This document shows, one piece after another, positions 3,098-47,537 of a stretch of 64,000 bases of DNA. Made by a program: the position numbers and the translations under genes. The notes beneath the pieces were generated by a model that saw only the letters and a program-made list of their open reading frames with translations, ran no database searches and was not told the origin of the DNA. Source of the stretch: an uncultured Dysosmobacter sp. (GTDB taxonomy: Bacteria > Bacillota > Clostridia > Oscillospirales > Oscillospiraceae); the NCBI GenBank assembly GCA_934565855.1, contig CAKTIO010000001.1, forward strand, positions 310,001 through 374,000. The letters run 5' to 3'. Every line of letters starts with the position of its first letter. Position 1 is the first letter of the stretch.

Positions 3098-4372
3098 ATG
3101 AACATCCTCGTTGTCGGCGGAGGCGGCCGGGAACACGCCATCATCAAAAAGCTGCGGGAGAACCCCCGTGTGACAAATATCTATGCGCTGCCGGGCAACG
3201 GCGGCATTGCTGCCGACGCTGTCTGCGTCCAGATCGCCGCCAAGGATATCGACGGTATCGCGGAGTTTGCCCGCACCCACGCCATTGACTTTGCAGTGGT
3301 AGCGCCGGACGACCCTCTGGCGCTGGGCTGCGTGGACCGTCTTCACGCACTGTCCATCCCCTGCTTTGGTCCCAATGCCGCTGCCGCCCGTATTGAGGCA
3401 AGCAAGGTCTTTTCCAAGAACCTGATGAAGCGCTACGGCATCCCCACCGCCGCCTACGAGGTTTTTCAGGACCCGAAAGCCGCCCTTGCCTATCTGCGCA
3501 CGGCAAGCTATCCCATCGTCATCAAGGCAGACGGTCTGGCACTGGGAAAGGGCGTTCTGATCCCGCAGTCCTACGCTGAGGCGGAGGACGCTGTCCGCGC
3601 CATTATGGAGGACAGGGTATTTGGTGACTCCGGCAACGAGATCGTGGTAGAGGAATTTCTCACCGGTCCTGAGGTATCCGTTCTGGCGTTTACCGATGGC
3701 ACCGCCATCCGTCCCATGATCTCCTCCATGGACCACAAGCGTGCCAAGGACGGGGACCAAGGGCTCAACACCGGCGGAATGGGCACAGTTGCCCCCAATC
3801 CCTATTACACTCCGGAGATCGCCCGGCAGTGCATGGATACGATTTTCCTGCCCACCCTTGCCGCCATGCGGAAGGAAGGCTGCCCCTTCAAGGGCTGCCT
3901 GTATTTTGGTCTGATGCTGACGCCGGATGGTCCCAGGGTCATTGAATACAACTGCCGCTTCGGCGATCCGGAGACACAGGTGGTCCTTCCTCTGCTGAAA
4001 ACGGATCTGCTGACCATCATGCAGGCGGTGGAGGAGGAAACTCTGGACCAGTTGGACATCCAATGGTCTCAGGATGCCGCCGCCTGTGTCATTCTGACAT
4101 CCGGCGGCTATCCGGAGCATTACGAAAAGGGAAAGGAAATCACCATTCCCGCCGCTCTGTCCGCCAACGTTACCGTTTACCACGCAGGCGACCAGCTGTC
4201 CGGCGGAAAGCTGGTGACCTCTGGCGGGCGCGTTTTAGGTGTCACTGCCACCGCAGCCACGCTGGAGCAAGCCCTCCAGGATGCGTACGCCGCTGCCGGC
4301 AGCATCCACTTTGAAAACGCTTATATGCGGCACGATATTGGTCAGCGGGCGCTGGCTGTGCAGAAAGGATGA
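3098..4372 (+). CDS. purD: Phosphoribosylamine-glycine ligase (GAR synthetase)
   Basis: ATP-grasp ligase joining glycine to phosphoribosylamine in the second step of purine synthesis. It has 424 residues from the ATG at 3098, which follows an AGGAGGG Shine-Dalgarno at 3086-3092. The in-frame extension upstream overlaps purH and has no conserved residues, so the shorter start is preferred. The N-terminus MNILVVGGGGREHAII is the PurD signature. ATP-grasp elements include VIKADGLALGKGV and the metal-binding segment EYNCRFGDPETQ. The stop overlaps the next ATG. Confidence 0.96.
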   Translation: MNILVVGGGGREHAIIKKLRENPRVTNIYALPGNGGIAADAVCVQIAAKDIDGIAEFARTHAIDFAVVAPDDPLALGCVDRLHALSIPCFGPNAAAARIEASKVFSKNLMKRYGIPTAAYEVFQDPKAALAYLRTASYPIVIKADGLALGKGVLIPQSYAEAEDAVRAIMEDRVFGDSGNEIVVEEFLTGPEVSVLAFTDGTAIRPMISSMDHKRAKDGDQGLNTGGMGTVAPNPYYTPEIARQCMDTIFLPTLAAMRKEGCPFKGCLYFGLMLTPDGPRVIEYNCRFGDPETQVVLPLLKTDLLTIMQAVEEETLDQLDIQWSQDAAACVILTSGGYPEHYEKGKEITIPAALSANVTVYHAGDQLSGGKLVTSGGRVLGVTATAATLEQALQDAYAAAGSIHFENAYMRHDIGQRALAVQKG

Positions 4373-4377
4373 ACCGT

Positions 4378-7300
4378 ATGGTCCGACGGATCTATGTAGA
4401 AAAAAAGCCTGCGCTCCGGCAGGAGGCGCATGCCCTGCTTCAGGAAATCCAAACGCTTTTGGGCATCCGCGCCCTGACCGGACTGCGGATCGTCAACCGC
4501 TACGATGTGGACGGTCTGGATGAAGAGAGCTTCCGCCGCGCAGCAGCGGCAGTCTTTTCCGAGCCGCAGCTGGACGACACCTCTGACACTCTGCCCGACC
4601 ACAGCGGCGTTGTATTTGCCGTGGAGTACCTGCCCGGGCAGTTCGATCAGCGGGCGGACTCCGCCAGCCAGTGTATCCAGCTTCTGACCGGAGGGGAGCG
4701 CCCCGCCGTCCGCACCGCAAAGGTCTATCTGCTCTCCGGTGACCTGAACGATCAGGGGGTCAGCCAGATCAAGCAGTATGTCATCAACCCGGTGGAAGCG
4801 CGGGAAGCCTCCCTGGAGGAGGTGCGTTCCCTTGCCATGCAGGTGGAGCAGCCCACCGCCCCCGCCGTGGTAGAGGGCTTCACCATGATGGATGACGGTT
4901 CTCTGGAAAAGCTGATCTCCCAATACGGTCTTGCAATGGACCTGGGCGATTTGAAGTGCTGCCGGGCATATTTTGCCGAGGAGGGACGGGACCCCACCAT
5001 CACGGAGATTCGTATTCTGGATACCTACTGGTCCGACCACTGCCGCCACACCACCTTCTCCACGGTGCTGACGGACCTTCAATTTGAGGACCCACAGGCA
5101 CAGCGCGCCTACCAGCGCTATCTGGACATCCGAGAGCAAACCCATGCCGGGAAAAAGCCCATCACACTGATGGACATCGGCACCCGCGGCGCAAAGTATC
5201 TGAAAGCCACCGGAGCACTGACCAATTTGGATGAATCCGAGGAGATCAACGCCTGCACGGTGAAAATCTCTGTGGATGAGAACGGCACGAAAAAGCCCTG
5301 GCTGCTGCTGTTTAAAAACGAGACCCACAACCATCCCACCGAGATCGAGCCCTTTGGCGGAGCCGCCACCTGCATTGGCGGAGCCATCCGGGACCCCCTG
5401 GCTGGACGCGGCTATGTCTATCAGGCAATGCGCGTTACGGGAGCCGCCGATCCCACCGTCCCCATCAGCCAGACCATGACCGGAAAGCTGCCCCAGCGGC
5501 AGATCGTGCAGAAGGCTGCCCAGGGCTACAGCTCCTATGGCAACCAAATTGGTCTTGCCACGGGACTGGTGCAGGAGATCTACCATCCGGGCTATGCCGC
5601 CAAGCGGATGGAAATCGGCGCGGTGGTCGGCGCGGTCCCTGCGGAAAACGTCCGCCGGGAGGTCCCCCAGCCAGGCGATGTGGTCATTCTGCTGGGTGGA
5701 CGCACAGGTCGTGACGGTGTTGGCGGAGCCACCGGCTCCTCCAAGAGCCATGACACCCAGTCCGTTTCCACCTGCTCCGCCGAGGTACAAAAGGGCAATG
5801 CGCCGGAGGAACGCAAGCTTCAGCGGCTGTTCCGTCATGGAGAGGCTGTCCGTCTCATCAAGCGCTGCAACGATTTTGGCGCAGGCGGCGTGTCTGTTGC
5901 CGTAGGCGAGCTGGCGGATTCCCTTGCCATCGACCTCAATGCCGTTACCAAAAAATATGAGGGTCTGGACGCCACCGAACTTGCCATCTCCGAATCTCAG
6001 GAGAGAATGGCGGTGGTCGTGGAGCAAAAGGACGCCGCCCGCTTCATGGAGCTTGCCCACAGCGAAAATCTGGAAGCGACCATTGTCGCCACAGTTACAG
6101 ACACCGGGCGGATGGTCATGACCTGGAACGGGCAGACCGTTGCCGACCTCTCCCGCGCATTTCTGAACACCAACGGCGCATCCCGCAGCGCCCAGGTCGC
6201 TGTGGAAGCACCGCAGCAACCCGCGGTACCTGCTGCCGGCGGGTTCCGGGAAACGCTTCAAAAGCTGGCAGGAGACCTGAACATCTGCTCTCAGCAGGGG
6301 CTGTCCGAACGGTTCGACTCCACCATCGGCGCATCCAGCGTCCTGATGCCCTTCGGTGGAAAATTCCAGAAAACTCCCACACAGGCAATGGTCGCCAAGC
6401 TTCCTGTACTGGGCTGTGAAACCACCACCTGCTCCATCATGGCATGGGGCGGAGATCCTGTTCAGATGGAGGAAAGTCCCTACCGCGGCGCATATCTCGC
6501 CGTGGTGGATTCCATTGCCAAGGTCATTGCCGCCGGCGGCAGCAGAAAAACCTGCTGGCTGAGCTTCCAGGAGTATTTTGAAAAGCTGGGCAGTGATCCC
6601 CACCGCTGGGGAAAGCCCGCCGCCGCTTTGCTGGGCGCTTTCAGCGCACAGCTGGACCTTCAGTGCGCCGCCATCGGCGGAAAGGATTCCATGTCCGGCA
6701 CCTTCAATCAGTTGGACGTGCCGCCCACTCTGGTCTCCTTCGCTGTTTCCACCGGAAGCTCCCGGCATATTTTCTCCAATGAATTCAAAGCAGCAGGGCA
6801 TTCTGTTGTTCTGCTGGCTCCGGAGGTCGATGAAAACGGTTTCCCCGTTACCGAAAGCCTTCTTGCCGTGCTGGACCAGGCGGAAACCGCGCTTTCCTCC
6901 GGAAGAGTCGTCAGCGCTGCCGTGGCAGGCAATGGCGGCATTGCCGCATCGGTGATGAAATCGGCGCTTGGCAACGGTCTCGGCTTCAGCTTTACCAAAA
7001 CAGACGGGCTGTTTGAACGCCATGCCGCCGCCTTTTTGCTGGAGGTCACAGAGGACATCGGCTGCGGAGTATGCATCGGTCAAATCACCAGCGATGGAAT
7101 GCTGACCTGCGGAGCTGAGCAGATCGCTTTGGCAGAGCTGGAAAAGCCCTACAGCCAGCGTTTGGAATCCGTATTTCCCATGCAGGCAAACGCCAGCGGA
7201 GAGACACCCCTGCTGTCCGCTCCCGCTGCTGTGCCTGCCGCGCCCAGGGTCGGCACTGCCCATCCCCGCATTCTGATCCCGGTTTTCCCCGGCACCAACT

Positions 7301-8061
7301 GCGAATATGACAGCGCCCGCGCTGCCGAGCGCGCCGGACTGACGCCAGAGATTCTGGTGCTGAACAATCAGACCGCCGCCGATGTTGCCGATTCCGCCCG
7401 CCGCTTTGTAAAAGCCGCAGCGGACAGCCAGATCCTCTTCCTCCCCGGCGGCTTCTCCGGCGGAGATGAACCGGACGGCTCCGGAAAGTTCATCACCGCC
7501 TTCTTCCGCAATCCCGCGGTAAAGGATGCCACCCATGAGCTGCTGAAAAACCGGGACGGACTGATGCTGGGCATCTGCAATGGCTTCCAGGCGCTGATCA
7601 AGCTGGGTCTGGTCCCCTATGGCGAGATCATCGACACAGATGCCAGCTGCCCCACCCTGACGTATAATGTCATCGGACGCCACCAGTCCAAGATCGTGCA
7701 CACCCGCGTTGCTTCCAACCGCTCTCCCTGGCTGTCCCGCACACAGGTGGGCGAATGCTTCTCCGTTCCCATTTCCCACGGCGAGGGACGCTTCCTCTGC
7801 CCGCCGGAACTGCTGCAAAGACTGGCGGAGAACGGGCAGATCGCCACACAGTACGTCGATCTGGACGGGACCCCCACAATGGATATTGCTTACAACCCCA
7901 ACGGCTCTGTCTGGGCGGTGGAGGGCATCACCTCCCCCGATGGACGGGTGTTCGGCAAGATGGGACACGCCGAGCGCATTGGTCCCGACCTGTACCAGAA
8001 CGTTCCCGGCAGCTACGATATGCACCTGTTTGACGCCGCCGCGGATTATTTCCACATCTGA
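4378..8061 (+). CDS. purL: Phosphoribosylformylglycinamidine synthase, single-chain form
   Basis: Converts FGAR to FGAM with glutamine as ammonia donor. It is a single chain of about 1227 residues that combines functions split among PurS, PurL and PurQ in Bacillus. The ATP/FGAR region carries HNHPTEIEPFGG. The C-terminal glutaminase domain begins near ILIPVFPGTNCEYDSARA, with the nucleophile in LGICNGFQAL and a later SHGEGRF histidine. An ATG at 4369 overlaps the purD stop, but the ATG at 4378 is spaced 8 bases from AAAGGA and begins MVRRIYVEKK, as in the family, so it is preferred. It is probably the last gene of this operon; guaB has its own candidate promoter. Confidence 0.95.
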   Translation: MVRRIYVEKKPALRQEAHALLQEIQTLLGIRALTGLRIVNRYDVDGLDEESFRRAAAAVFSEPQLDDTSDTLPDHSGVVFAVEYLPGQFDQRADSASQCIQLLTGGERPAVRTAKVYLLSGDLNDQGVSQIKQYVINPVEAREASLEEVRSLAMQVEQPTAPAVVEGFTMMDDGSLEKLISQYGLAMDLGDLKCCRAYFAEEGRDPTITEIRILDTYWSDHCRHTTFSTVLTDLQFEDPQAQRAYQRYLDIREQTHAGKKPITLMDIGTRGAKYLKATGALTNLDESEEINACTVKISVDENGTKKPWLLLFKNETHNHPTEIEPFGGAATCIGGAIRDPLAGRGYVYQAMRVTGAADPTVPISQTMTGKLPQRQIVQKAAQGYSSYGNQIGLATGLVQEIYHPGYAAKRMEIGAVVGAVPAENVRREVPQPGDVVILLGGRTGRDGVGGATGSSKSHDTQSVSTCSAEVQKGNAPEERKLQRLFRHGEAVRLIKRCNDFGAGGVSVAVGELADSLAIDLNAVTKKYEGLDATELAISESQERMAVVVEQKDAARFMELAHSENLEATIVATVTDTGRMVMTWNGQTVADLSRAFLNTNGASRSAQVAVEAPQQPAVPAAGGFRETLQKLAGDLNICSQQGLSERFDSTIGASSVLMPFGGKFQKTPTQAMVAKLPVLGCETTTCSIMAWGGDPVQMEESPYRGAYLAVVDSIAKVIAAGGSRKTCWLSFQEYFEKLGSDPHRWGKPAAALLGAFSAQLDLQCAAIGGKDSMSGTFNQLDVPPTLVSFAVSTGSSRHIFSNEFKAAGHSVVLLAPEVDENGFPVTESLLAVLDQAETALSSGRVVSAAVAGNGGIAASVMKSALGNGLGFSFTKTDGLFERHAAAFLLEVTEDIGCGVCIGQITSDGMLTCGAEQIALAELEKPYSQRLESVFPMQANASGETPLLSAPAAVPAAPRVGTAHPRILIPVFPGTNCEYDSARAAERAGLTPEILVLNNQTAADVADSARRFVKAAADSQILFLPGGFSGGDEPDGSGKFITAFFRNPAVKDATHELLKNRDGLMLGICNGFQALIKLGLVPYGEIIDTDASCPTLTYNVIGRHQSKIVHTRVASNRSPWLSRTQVGECFSVPISHGEGRFLCPPELLQRLAENGQIATQYVDLDGTPTMDIAYNPNGSVWAVEGITSPDGRVFGKMGHAERIGPDLYQNVPGSYDMHLFDAAADYFHI

Positions 8062-44710: not shown

Positions 44711-44755
44711 CCGGCGGCGCAGCAGCCTTTCCGGTCCCTCCTTAAAATTTCCCTG

Positions 44756-44784
44756 CACAGCGCCTGTAGGCGCTGTGTTTTTTT
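44756..44784 (+). terminator. Terminator after the phosphodiesterase gene
   Basis: A 9-bp stem CACAGCGCC/GGCGCTGTG (44756-44764 with 44769-44777) with a TGTA loop is followed by seven T. It reaches the stop codon of the convergent GTPase gene. Confidence 0.9.
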
Positions 44785-47449
44785 ACTCCGGCTTTCTTTT
44801 CCGAAGCTGCGCCGCCTCCATCGCCGCCTGCACCTGACGGTTTTTCCCGCCGCGGCTGTTGTTCCGGTGTACGATGGCGGCGATCTGCCCCTCCACGCTC
44901 TCCACCTCCTCATGAAACGCCGACGCCGGGATTCGCAGCGCGCCATGCCCCAGAATGATCAACTGCTCCGCACCATCCGAGGTTGCCACCCGCACCCGGT
45001 TGTCCCGTCCCAGCTCATAGGTTGCCTTTTCAATATAGGCATCCGCTGTCTGCGATTCCTTCGTATAGACCACAGTGATATTGCCGTAGCGGGACACCTC
45101 CCCGGTCTGGTGCGGCACCTTGTAGGCGTCAAACACCAGAATGACGTGGTTTTTCCGAAAGCCCTGATAATTGCTCAGCAGGTCCATCAGCAGCTTTCTC
45201 GCCGCGTCCAGATTGTCCCGCGCCACGTCCTTCAGCTCATCCCAGGCGTAAATGATGTTATAGCCATCCACCAGCAAATATTCCGGTCCCGCCGGCTGGG
45301 GAGCTGCCGCCCGCTTCCGCTCCGTCTCCTGACGGCGCTGCTGTGCCTGTGGGTCAAAGCCCCGCCGCTGCCGCACCGGACCATAGGTCCGTTCAAAAAT
45401 CGCACGCAGCTCCTGATCCTCCTCAAAGGTCCCCGCTGTCCGGGCAGAACGGCTGGCGCTTCGCGGCTCTGTCCGCTCAGGCTGCGGCTCCTCCGTGCCG
45501 CCGCGCCCACTGGAAACATGCGCGTGCTGCACCACCTCATACCAGGGCACCAGATATCCGCCCCCGTGGGCGCAGAACACGGAATCCGCCGGGTTTTCGG
45601 CATCCCGCTCCGCATCGTAGCCAATGGCGGCGATCACCTCCTCCGCGTTGTGGCACGGCTCATACCCCCTCAGCGTGCAGAGCATCCGTCCCCGTCCCCG
45701 GGTGTATGCCGCCAGCTCCGCGGCGTAGGTCCGCAGCTCCACCACCGGAACGCTGCCGGTCAGCACAGCCTCCTCTCCGTTCAGCTCCGGCGGCTGCAGC
45801 CTACCCGCCTTCATTTGCAGATCGGACATGGCTCTGCCGACACAGTCGGCGGGCAGCTCCAGCCGGACGTCGTACCACGGCTCCAGCAGAACGCTCTCCG
45901 CCTGCATCAGTCCCTGCCGCACCGCCCGGTAGGTCGCCTGGCGGAAATCTCCGCCCTCTGTATGCTTGATATGCGCCCTGCCCGTCAGCAGTGTGATGCG
46001 CAGGTCTGTCACCGGTGAACCCGTCAGCACTCCGGGAAAATCCCGCTCCTGCAGATGCGTGAAAATCAGCCGCTGCCAGCTGCGGTCCAGCTGGTCCTCC
46101 GGGCAGGCGGATTCCAGCTGCAAGCCGCTGCCCTGCTCGCCCGGCTCCAGCAGCAGATGCACCTCGGCATAATGGCGCAGCGGCTCAAAATGCCCGATGC
46201 CCTCCACCGTGCTGGCGATGGTCTCCTTGTAGACAATGCTGCCCTCTCCAAAGGCGACCTGCCAGCCAAAGCGCTCCGCGATCACCCGCTGCAAAACCTC
46301 CAGCTGGATCTCACCCATCAGTTGCACCCGGATCTGCCGGGTACCCTCGTCCCATACCAGATGCAGCTGCGGGTCCTCTTCCTCCAGCTGGGTCAGCTTT
46401 CCCATTGCCGCGTGAGGATCGCAGCCCTCCGGAAGCAGCAGCTGATAGGACAGCACCGGTTCCAGCACCGGGGCTTCTGAAGCGCTCTCCGCACCCAAGC
46501 CCTCACCGGGACAGGTCCTGCTCAACCCCGTTACCGCACAGACCATTCCAGCCGGAACCTCGTCCACTGTCTGAAACTTCACCCCGGAATACAGCCGCAG
46601 CTGGTCCGCCTTTTCCTCCCAGACCTGCTCCGGCGGCAGTCCCTTCTTCCGGTTGCTGAGCAGCGCCTTGACCTTCAGGCTTCCGCCTGTGACCTTCAGA
46701 TAGGTCAGCCGCGCCCCCTGCGGGTCTCGGGCAATCTTATAAACCTTTGCGCCGAACTCCGCCGGATACTGCGGAGCCAGTGTATACTCCTCCAGCCCCC
46801 GCAGAAACGCGTCGATACCGTCCAGCTTCAAGGCGGAGCCAAACCACACCGGAAAAATCTTCCGCTGCGCGGCTGCCCCGGCGATCCTCTGCCGGGAAAC
46901 CCTTCCCTGCTCCAGATACTCCGCCAGCGCCTCCTCACTACCGGTGGCAACACTCTCCAAAAACTCTTCCGACGTCTGATCTGTAAAGTCAATACAGCTG
47001 TCATCCAGCCGGGTCTTCAGCTCTGTCATCAGCGTCTCCCGGTCCGCGCCTGCCAGGTCCATTTTGTTGACAAACACCAGCACCGGCACCTGATAGCGCC
47101 GCAGCAGCTGCCACACGGTCCGGGTGTGCGCCTGCACACCGTCCGTCCCACTAACCACCAGGACTGCATAGTCCAGTACCTGCAGTGTCCGCTCCATCTC
47201 CGCGGAAAAATCCATATGTCCCGGCGTATCCACCAGCTGGATCTCTGTTTCCGGCAGCAGCAGCCGCGCCTGCTTGGCAAAGATGGTGATGCCCCGCTCC
47301 CGCTCCAATGTGTCCGTATCCAAAAAGGCGTCCTGATGGTCCACCCGTCCCAGCTTCCGCAGGCAGCCGCCGCGGTACAGCAATGCCTCGGACAGGGTGG
47401 TTTTTCCCGCATCCACATGGGCGAGAATTCCCATGACCAGTCGTTTCAT
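44783..47449 (-). CDS. TetM/EF-G-like ribosomal GTPase fused to a Rae1/YacP NYN endonuclease
   Basis: An 888-residue two-part protein. Residues 1-~645 are a ribosome-protection-type GTPase: G1 AHVDAGKTT (10-18), switch RGITIFAKQA, G3 DTPGHMDF, G4 NKMDLAG, then domains II-V with HIKHTEGGDFRQATYRAVRQG and DSVFCAHGGGYLVPW. A charged, proline-rich linker (~646-722) leads to residues 723-~880, a NYN nuclease matching B. subtilis Rae1/YacP: LLVDGYNIIYAW, VVYTKESQTADAYIEK and ATSDGAEQ. Rae1 cleaves mRNA in the ribosomal A site. The loop that in TetM strips tetracycline (YSPVS type) is replaced, so a resistance role is doubtful. The ATG at 47449 follows GGAG. Confidence 0.9.
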   Translation of the reverse strand: MKRLVMGILAHVDAGKTTLSEALLYRGGCLRKLGRVDHQDAFLDTDTLERERGITIFAKQARLLLPETEIQLVDTPGHMDFSAEMERTLQVLDYAVLVVSGTDGVQAHTRTVWQLLRRYQVPVLVFVNKMDLAGADRETLMTELKTRLDDSCIDFTDQTSEEFLESVATGSEEALAEYLEQGRVSRQRIAGAAAQRKIFPVWFGSALKLDGIDAFLRGLEEYTLAPQYPAEFGAKVYKIARDPQGARLTYLKVTGGSLKVKALLSNRKKGLPPEQVWEEKADQLRLYSGVKFQTVDEVPAGMVCAVTGLSRTCPGEGLGAESASEAPVLEPVLSYQLLLPEGCDPHAAMGKLTQLEEEDPQLHLVWDEGTRQIRVQLMGEIQLEVLQRVIAERFGWQVAFGEGSIVYKETIASTVEGIGHFEPLRHYAEVHLLLEPGEQGSGLQLESACPEDQLDRSWQRLIFTHLQERDFPGVLTGSPVTDLRITLLTGRAHIKHTEGGDFRQATYRAVRQGLMQAESVLLEPWYDVRLELPADCVGRAMSDLQMKAGRLQPPELNGEEAVLTGSVPVVELRTYAAELAAYTRGRGRMLCTLRGYEPCHNAEEVIAAIGYDAERDAENPADSVFCAHGGGYLVPWYEVVQHAHVSSGRGGTEEPQPERTEPRSASRSARTAGTFEEDQELRAIFERTYGPVRQRRGFDPQAQQRRQETERKRAAAPQPAGPEYLLVDGYNIIYAWDELKDVARDNLDAARKLLMDLLSNYQGFRKNHVILVFDAYKVPHQTGEVSRYGNITVVYTKESQTADAYIEKATYELGRDNRVRVATSDGAEQLIILGHGALRIPASAFHEEVESVEGQIAAIVHRNNSRGGKNRQVQAAMEAAQLRKRKPE

Positions 47450-47508
47450 GATAACTCCTTGCAATTTATTTCGACAGTATTCCTGTTTGTAATCCATTTT
47501 TTATTTTT

Positions 47509-47537
47509 ATTGTACCATGCTTCCCCTTTCCGCGCAA
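47509..47537 (-). promoter_or_regulatory. Promoter of the GTPase-Rae1 fusion gene
   Basis: On the minus strand TTGCGC (47537-47532) and TACAAT (47514-47509) have a 17-base spacer. The predicted transcript begins near 47502, leaving a leader of about 50 bases. An in-frame ATG at 47497 lies only a few bases inside it. Confidence 0.65.

Follow-up and report, generated by a model that had tools for sequence, protein, structure and literature searches.

The joining of a Tet-like translational GTPase to a YacP-type nuclease has been in print since 2015, when Atkinson (PMC4342817), in the passages of that paper drawn on here, described a YacP-like NYN RNase domain on Tet proteins of ten Clostridiales species and proposed that the RNase activity may serve resistance. 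The protein analysed here, encoded in a 64,000-nucleotide stretch of Dysosmobacter DNA (hereafter the window), answers to that description, being a Tet-like translational GTPase with a YacP-NYN domain whose kin are Clostridia, and its architecture, already given in those passages, is therefore not new. The same passages treat neither a replacement of free yacP nor a loop signature, a linker helix or the origin of the fusion, and no other description of the fusion was recognised among the papers listed by literature searches, as judged by titles, the beginnings of abstracts and term counts. What the present work adds is the survey of fused and standalone forms, the replacement of yacP, a tree compatible with a single fusion, and the anatomy of the loop, the nuclease and the linker.

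On the nuclease side, the closest described system is Rae1/YacP of Bacillus subtilis, with which the NYN domain of the window protein shares the motifs LLVDGYN, VFDA, TAD and TSD, and which is an A-site mRNA nuclease according to the parts of two papers used here (PMC6613710, PMC12320835). Standalone Rae1/YacP relatives are proteins of about 170 aa with a conserved C-terminal tail, usually encoded in an rlmB-sigH cluster, whereas the nuclease of the fusion is joined to a GTPase, is encoded elsewhere in the genome and has a tail that varies across the fused clade. On the GTPase side, Tet(M) and Tet(O) are EF-G-like translational GTPases as the fusion is, with a loop III of equal length in the alignment, but they differ from it in loop III, in the loop I region and at the C-terminal end; among the matches listed, plasmid tet rows covering at least 92% of the query were 27-31% identical. 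EF-G shares its fold with the fusion, and H493 of the fusion aligns with the EF-G loop histidine; the EF-G loop HDVDSSEMAF is nevertheless replaced, and the EF-G family model TIGR00484 scored 290.5 against a cut-off of 659.4.

One reading frame with two domains

The gene occupies a single, uninterrupted open frame on the minus strand (44783..47497), which comes to 904 aa when counted from its first ATG. The start at 47449, yielding 888 aa, appears likelier than the one at 47497, because AAGGAG stands 5 nt ahead of it, compared with an ATG at 47497 that lies close behind TACAAT (47514..47509, found by eye). The resulting protein is laid out as an EF-G/TetM-type translational GTPase (residues 1-645), a linker of 77 aa and a YacP/Rae1 NYN nuclease (residues 723-888); the features along it are collected in Table 1. 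The open frame and the Pfam domains thus confirm the first-pass annotation, which had read one 888-residue frame joining a translational GTPase to a Rae1-type NYN domain through some 75 residues, and the motifs that it had named (LLVDGYN, TADAYIEK, ATSDGAEQ and HIKHTEGGDF) are all present in the frame.

Table 1. Features of the fusion gene and its product, with positions in the window.
Feature	Residues	Position	Strand	Basis
Whole fusion gene, 888 aa + stop		44783..47449	-	open frame, Pfam domains, homologues
AAGGAG, ribosome-binding site of the start at 47449		47455..47460	-	read from sequence
GTPase (G) domain; AHVDAGKT, DTPGH (H78), NKMD, GSAL	1-222	46784..47449	-	Pfam GTP_EFTU 4-222
EF-G domain II	233-312	46514..46753	-	EF-G_D2 weak, below Pfam cut-off
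EF-G domain III	351-401	46247..46399	-	Pfam EFG_III
EF-G domain IV	404-517	45899..46240	-	Pfam EFG_IV
Domain IV tip loop III, GRAHIKHTEGGDFR; family signature	490-503	45941..45982	-	alignment
EF-G domain V	520-601	45647..45892	-	Pfam EFG_C
Family C-terminal extension	602-645	45515..45646	-	alignment of representative rows; folded in model
Linker, 77 aa, mostly disordered	646-722	45284..45514	-	pLDDT < 50 at 651-675 and 684-717
Conserved helix in linker, FEEDQELRAIFERT	675-688	45386..45427	-	model (low confidence) and motif
NYN_YacP/Rae1-type nuclease and tail; D728, D774, D803, D825	723-888	44786..45283	-	Pfam, Rae1 structures

A frameshift or assembly join at the linker, which the same annotation had allowed for, left no sign and was ruled out as the source of the fusion: the frame is open throughout, the 90%-identity cluster of the window protein holds 5 sequences on 3 contigs, and PF00009 and PF05991 were both present in every one of the best 120 of 7985 scored homologues (window protein included), whose identity, apart from the window protein itself, was 64-72%. 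An AlphaFold2 model calculated from a 44-row alignment (mean pLDDT 85.7, pTM 0.67) predicts most of the GTPase and NYN domains well. When the model was submitted to Foldseek, the best 50 matches were EF-G/EF-2-type structures, headed by 8p2g (E 4e-55), and no NYN structure was among these 50.

Upstream of the fusion gene, no promoter-like site was found by the scan's own rule, and neither reading of the sequence nor the scan led us to recognise an attenuator or leader. Terminator-like sites in the scan numbered 5 (2.0 on average after shuffling), one of them a 5-pair stem at 47599-47586, ahead of the fusion gene. A strong terminator-like hairpin with a T run lies at 44755-44778 on the plus strand, between the ends of the fusion gene and of a metallophosphoesterase gene. 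Elsewhere in the window, at 4342-8061, two open frames of more than 1200 codons occupy the same stretch on opposite strands, one of them presumably a composition effect.

The GTPase half and tetracycline resistance

The GTPase half has the P-loop, switch motifs, DTPGH histidine and NKxD of translational GTPases of the EF2 family; GTP_EFTU scored 171.8 bits, and H78, N128, K129 and D131 were conserved in all 53 fused and all 28 unfused rows of the alignment. Among the representative rows, the unfused clostridial relatives shown end at or shortly after the family extension near residue 645. The tip loop of domain IV, for which we use the name loop III transferred from TetM through the alignment, follows a consensus of approximately H-x-K-H-T-x-G-G-D-F-R in fused and unfused rows alike. 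Four of its residues (H496, T497, D501 and F502) were found in 81/81 rows, 53 fused and 28 unfused, and the others were close to invariant, with H493 in 51/53 and K495, G499, G500 and R503 in 50/53 of the fused rows and all five in 28/28 of the unfused ones. Since the loop is common to fused and unfused relatives, it marks the GTPase family and not the fusion.

These features bear on the proposal of Atkinson (2015), under which the protein would protect ribosomes from tetracycline and the NYN domain would contribute an RNase-based form of resistance. The family does group with Tet-type GTPases, tet(M) included, and apart from EF-G; tet_protect is its best NCBIfam match, and at least five listed fusion homologues carry TetM/TetW/TetO/TetS family names in the database. 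The tet_protect score, however, falls short of the curated cut-off (395.7 compared with 775 bits), loop III reads YYSPVSTPADFR in tet(M) (L208) compared with AHIKHTEGGDFR in the window protein, and the C-terminal end of TetM is replaced. Loop III and the C-terminal helix are important for ribosomal protection in TetM-type proteins, according to the part of PMC4750697 used here, and in the alignment the window protein has neither of them in its TetM form. The genomic setting speaks on both sides: no neighbour is common to more than 6/53 fused loci, the window has no Rfam match between 40000 and 52000, and at least five genomes have the gene on a contig of 2.9-3.9 Mb, whereas a fusion-length relative of 55% identity lies on a 518-kb plasmid-labelled record of Monoglobus.

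On the family score, loop III and the C-terminal end, we regard tetracycline resistance as quite improbable. The first-pass annotation had taken the replaced loop as an argument against simple tetracycline resistance, and this stands insofar as the loop argues against protection; it does not stand as a mark of the fusion, given that unfused relatives have the same loop. As to database names, the fusions P0014, P0061, P0070, P0094 and P0115 are entered as TetM/TetW/TetO/TetS family tetracycline resistance proteins, and the gene at 5001-7589 of L210, on a Monoglobus pectinilyticus record labelled plasmid 12, is annotated as a translation factor GTPase family protein.

Distribution, ancestry and the separate yacP gene

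A Lawsonibacter genome served to define the class, from which we took 393 genomes to search for PF05991. The YacP domain was found in 250/393 genomes, of which 128 were classed as fused, 112 as standalone and 10 as unclear, by open-frame length (780 aa or more for fused, 150-240 aa for standalone) with cut-offs chosen after the two peaks had been seen; one genome counted as fused at 789 aa (G101) has an NYN match that is only partial. A YacP match was absent from 143/393 genomes, for which, as for the whole sample, completeness is not stated, and the function may therefore be dispensable. With 128 fused genomes among the 393 searched, rarity of the fusion is ruled out; its presence in related genomes is established, and the idea of a rare or unreported fusion has to be given up for one that is widespread in the class and, as seen above, long in print.

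Five genomes gave more than one YacP match, with the second below the cut-off in three, and 79 fused genomes, together with the unclear G092, had one GTPase match each at E 1e-80 or better, that of G092 being in two pieces. Carriers by the open frame at the locus include Lawsonibacter, Merdimonas, Mogibacterium, Pseudobutyrivibrio and Lachnospiraceae AC2029, and Ruminococcus flavefaciens Y1 and Kallipyga massiliensis are carriers by frame length and by a cut open frame with both halves. In Bacilli, sampled as the class of a Halalkalibacter genome, 194/200 genomes matched and no fused YacP was present among the 150 rows listed, 149 of which had frames of up to 269 aa and one (G542) a frame of 430 aa. 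Of the 112 standalone genomes, 65 were tested for the unfused GTPase, and 19 of these have it beside a free YacP; it was also present where no YacP matched, in 3 of the 15 such genomes tested and in 2 Bifidobacterium genomes, which indicates that the GTPase can work without the nuclease; in 2 of 24 matching genomes (G406 and G160) the GTPase matches were Tet-like. YacP-like NYN domains were also seen in 12 phage-filed records (6 Listeria, 3 unnamed, 2 Staphylococcus and 1 Enterococcus), and the 10 of these 12 that were listed (H31-H40) are unannotated and may be host fragments.

The phylogeny of the GTPase half was inferred from 88 rows by a quick method with SH-aLRT support only. In the resulting tree, 53/53 fused rows and 3 unfused actinobacterial rows define one clade (support 100). 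The other 25 unfused rows, which come from Neobacillus, Intestinibacter and genomes of the same class, stand beside it (support 90), with three Tet-like and four EF-G rows outside. This first tree was without tet(M); when it was redone with tet(M) and tet(O/W/32/O), the 81 family rows still formed one group and the 3 unfused rows lay inside the fused set. Three rows cut at contig ends (L011, L019 and L020) and L083 were excluded from the GTPase trees. Trees and counts also leave out 20 fused frames truncated where a short locus ended, several of them second views of included genes. The NYN tree is weak: left free, it needs 3 changes and places two standalone YacPs (L191 and L201) among the fused rows, and a tree with the fused NYN domains as one clade had a better likelihood than the free tree and was not rejected (p-AU 0.586). 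In the class of Bifidobacterium avesanii, G015 itself was the only one of 148 genomes to reach E 1e-120, so that those Bifidobacterium copies look transferred. The sequence relationships fit one fusion event, after which the gene would have passed to Actinobacteria and lost its nuclease part there, although gain and loss are not told apart by counting changes.

One locus shows the two halves apart. In a draft genome named Acetivibrio straminisolvens (G030; L083, 2-2022), the GTPase and NYN halves are in two frames with a 4-base overlap; the row was kept apart as 'split' in the NYN tree, where it clusters with fused rows such as L149, and draft error, decay or contamination is possible.

A separate yacP was nearly always absent where the fusion was present, in agreement with the co-occurrence of fusion and yacP loss that the first-pass annotation had raised: a single genome of the 250 YacP-positive ones (G314) has the fusion and an intact standalone copy. 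The standalone gene usually lies in the order cysS-mrnC-rlmB-yacP-sigH on one strand, and its neighbours at 20 loci were rlmB (17), mrnC (17) and cysS (16) upstream and sigH (16) downstream. The name rlmB was confirmed by its family model (278 bits against a cut-off of 160), and cysS (302.9 against 340, in a gene cut by a contig end) and SigH (204.5 against 208) are the best family-model names, each just below its cut-off. The gene between cysS and rlmB, which had no NCBIfam match at 1e-10, we take to be mrnC from its sequence and from gene order.

sigH was found in 27 of the 30 fused genomes examined. The rlmB-sigH junction could be read in 15 of the 27 sigH loci, which extend to at most 3.6 kb each, the other 12 showing no rlmB; in these 15 genomes, tblastn at E 1e-3 revealed no yacP in 13, a remnant in one and an intact gene in one. 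The fusion locus itself is not in the rlmB-sigH cluster, its neighbours in the window being other genes, and within the few kb around the fused genes the largest cluster of shared neighbours covered 6/53 loci, on which basis an operon link of the fusion genes to their neighbours was rejected. In G400, where a standalone yacP survives in fragments alongside the fusion, a decayed yacP still lies between rlmB and sigH (L213, 794-1083), and in G314 (L221 and L164) an intact standalone yacP is found at the old rlmB-sigH place (L221), with the fusion also present.

Nuclease, linker and a possible role on the ribosome

Pfam NYN_YacP matched residues 725-883 with 164.9 bits against a cut-off of 24.6, and the Rae1 structures 5mq9 and 5mq8 matched the NYN domain over 142 aa (E 8e-26 and 9e-26). 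The aspartates D728, D774, D803 and D825, which from the fold family we assume to be the NYN active site, are invariant in 53/53 fused and 35/35 standalone rows (L083 and L103 being excluded from these counts), so the acidic residues on which the nuclease assignment had been made to depend are intact. Other features differ between the two forms, in comparisons whose rows share kinship and are not independent events: the frequency of R839 is 1.00 in standalone YacP and 0.47 in fused NYN domains, that of E828 is 0.97 and 0.55, a tail of less than 20 aa is found in 19/53 fused compared with 0/35 standalone rows, the tail pattern is retained in 9/53 compared with 27/35, and the fused core is more acidic (median -5 compared with 0). 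The window protein keeps R839, E828 and a basic tail of 28 aa. Such relaxation is as expected if recruitment had moved to the GTPase, and could instead reflect drift or another target.

The linker spans 65-199 aa in the 53 fused rows (median 75). A strict motif for its helix, composed after inspecting the sequences, is found in 48/53 linkers, compared with a shuffled mean of 0.2/53, and the remaining 5 are one-change variants. The likeness of this helix to the C-terminal helix of TetM is too weak to claim.

On balance we lean towards the reading that the protein is a ribosome factor of gut Clostridia that replaced free Rae1, with the GTPase bringing the nuclease to ribosomes. Recruitment by the GTPase is what we infer; a swap upon GTP hydrolysis, with domain IV moving out and NYN into the A site, is more speculative. 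With a conserved domain IV tip peculiar to its family, the GTPase half would bind paused ribosomes at the factor site, and the nuclease would be held near the ribosome by the flexible linker, whose conserved helix may be an anchor point, either to the ribosome or to the GTPase. GTP hydrolysis would make domain IV exit the A site, the NYN domain would then enter and cut the A-site codon, and the truncated complex would be cleared afterwards by ribosome rescue. We put forward more tentatively, and with some doubt, a fuller version of this factor as a GTP-clocked mRNA cleavage device that would take the place of a free A-site nuclease in a large part of the class Clostridia, and in which the GTPase selects paused ribosomes and times the cut and the linker helix is the ribosome anchor. 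Among the observations that count against the favoured reading are the unfused GTPase in genomes with no YacP match, the retention of both forms in G314 and the position of L191 and L201 among the fused rows in the free NYN tree.

Domain IV and Rae1 are both expected to need the A site and would have to alternate there or work on separate ribosomes, and this clash is the main weak point of the mechanism. There would be no clash if the GTPase acted on one stalled ribosome and the tethered NYN domain cut mRNA at another place, such as the mRNA entry channel or the A site of a trailing ribosome after a collision; by contour length a linker of 65-199 aa would probably be long enough for this arrangement, to which we assign a low probability.

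The halves may also be independent, with the fusion only fixing their ratio and the NYN domain processing rRNA or tRNA, as was once proposed for YacP (cited in the part of PMC4342817 used here). An unfused GTPase exists in genomes without YacP, and the linker is mostly disordered in the model, both of which agree with independence. So do the usual yacP neighbours mrnC and rlmB, which act on rRNA. The linker-helix motif is nevertheless present, in its strict or one-change form, in 53/53 rows; among the rows examined, the joined form was lost only in the actinobacterial rows and in the frame-broken draft L083; and the papers cited above have Rae1 cutting mRNA in the A site. We consider independent halves unlikely, and favour the ribosome factor that replaced free Rae1.

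That the fusion in most cases takes the place of a separate nuclease gene makes its role testable. The favoured reading also suggests that family members labelled as tetracycline resistance proteins may have housekeeping functions, a point of relevance to counts of resistance genes. If the proposed ribosome factor is real, it would show how ribosome-coupled mRNA decay starts across a large set of gut bacteria, and it would provide a natural system for finding out how Rae1 is recruited more generally.
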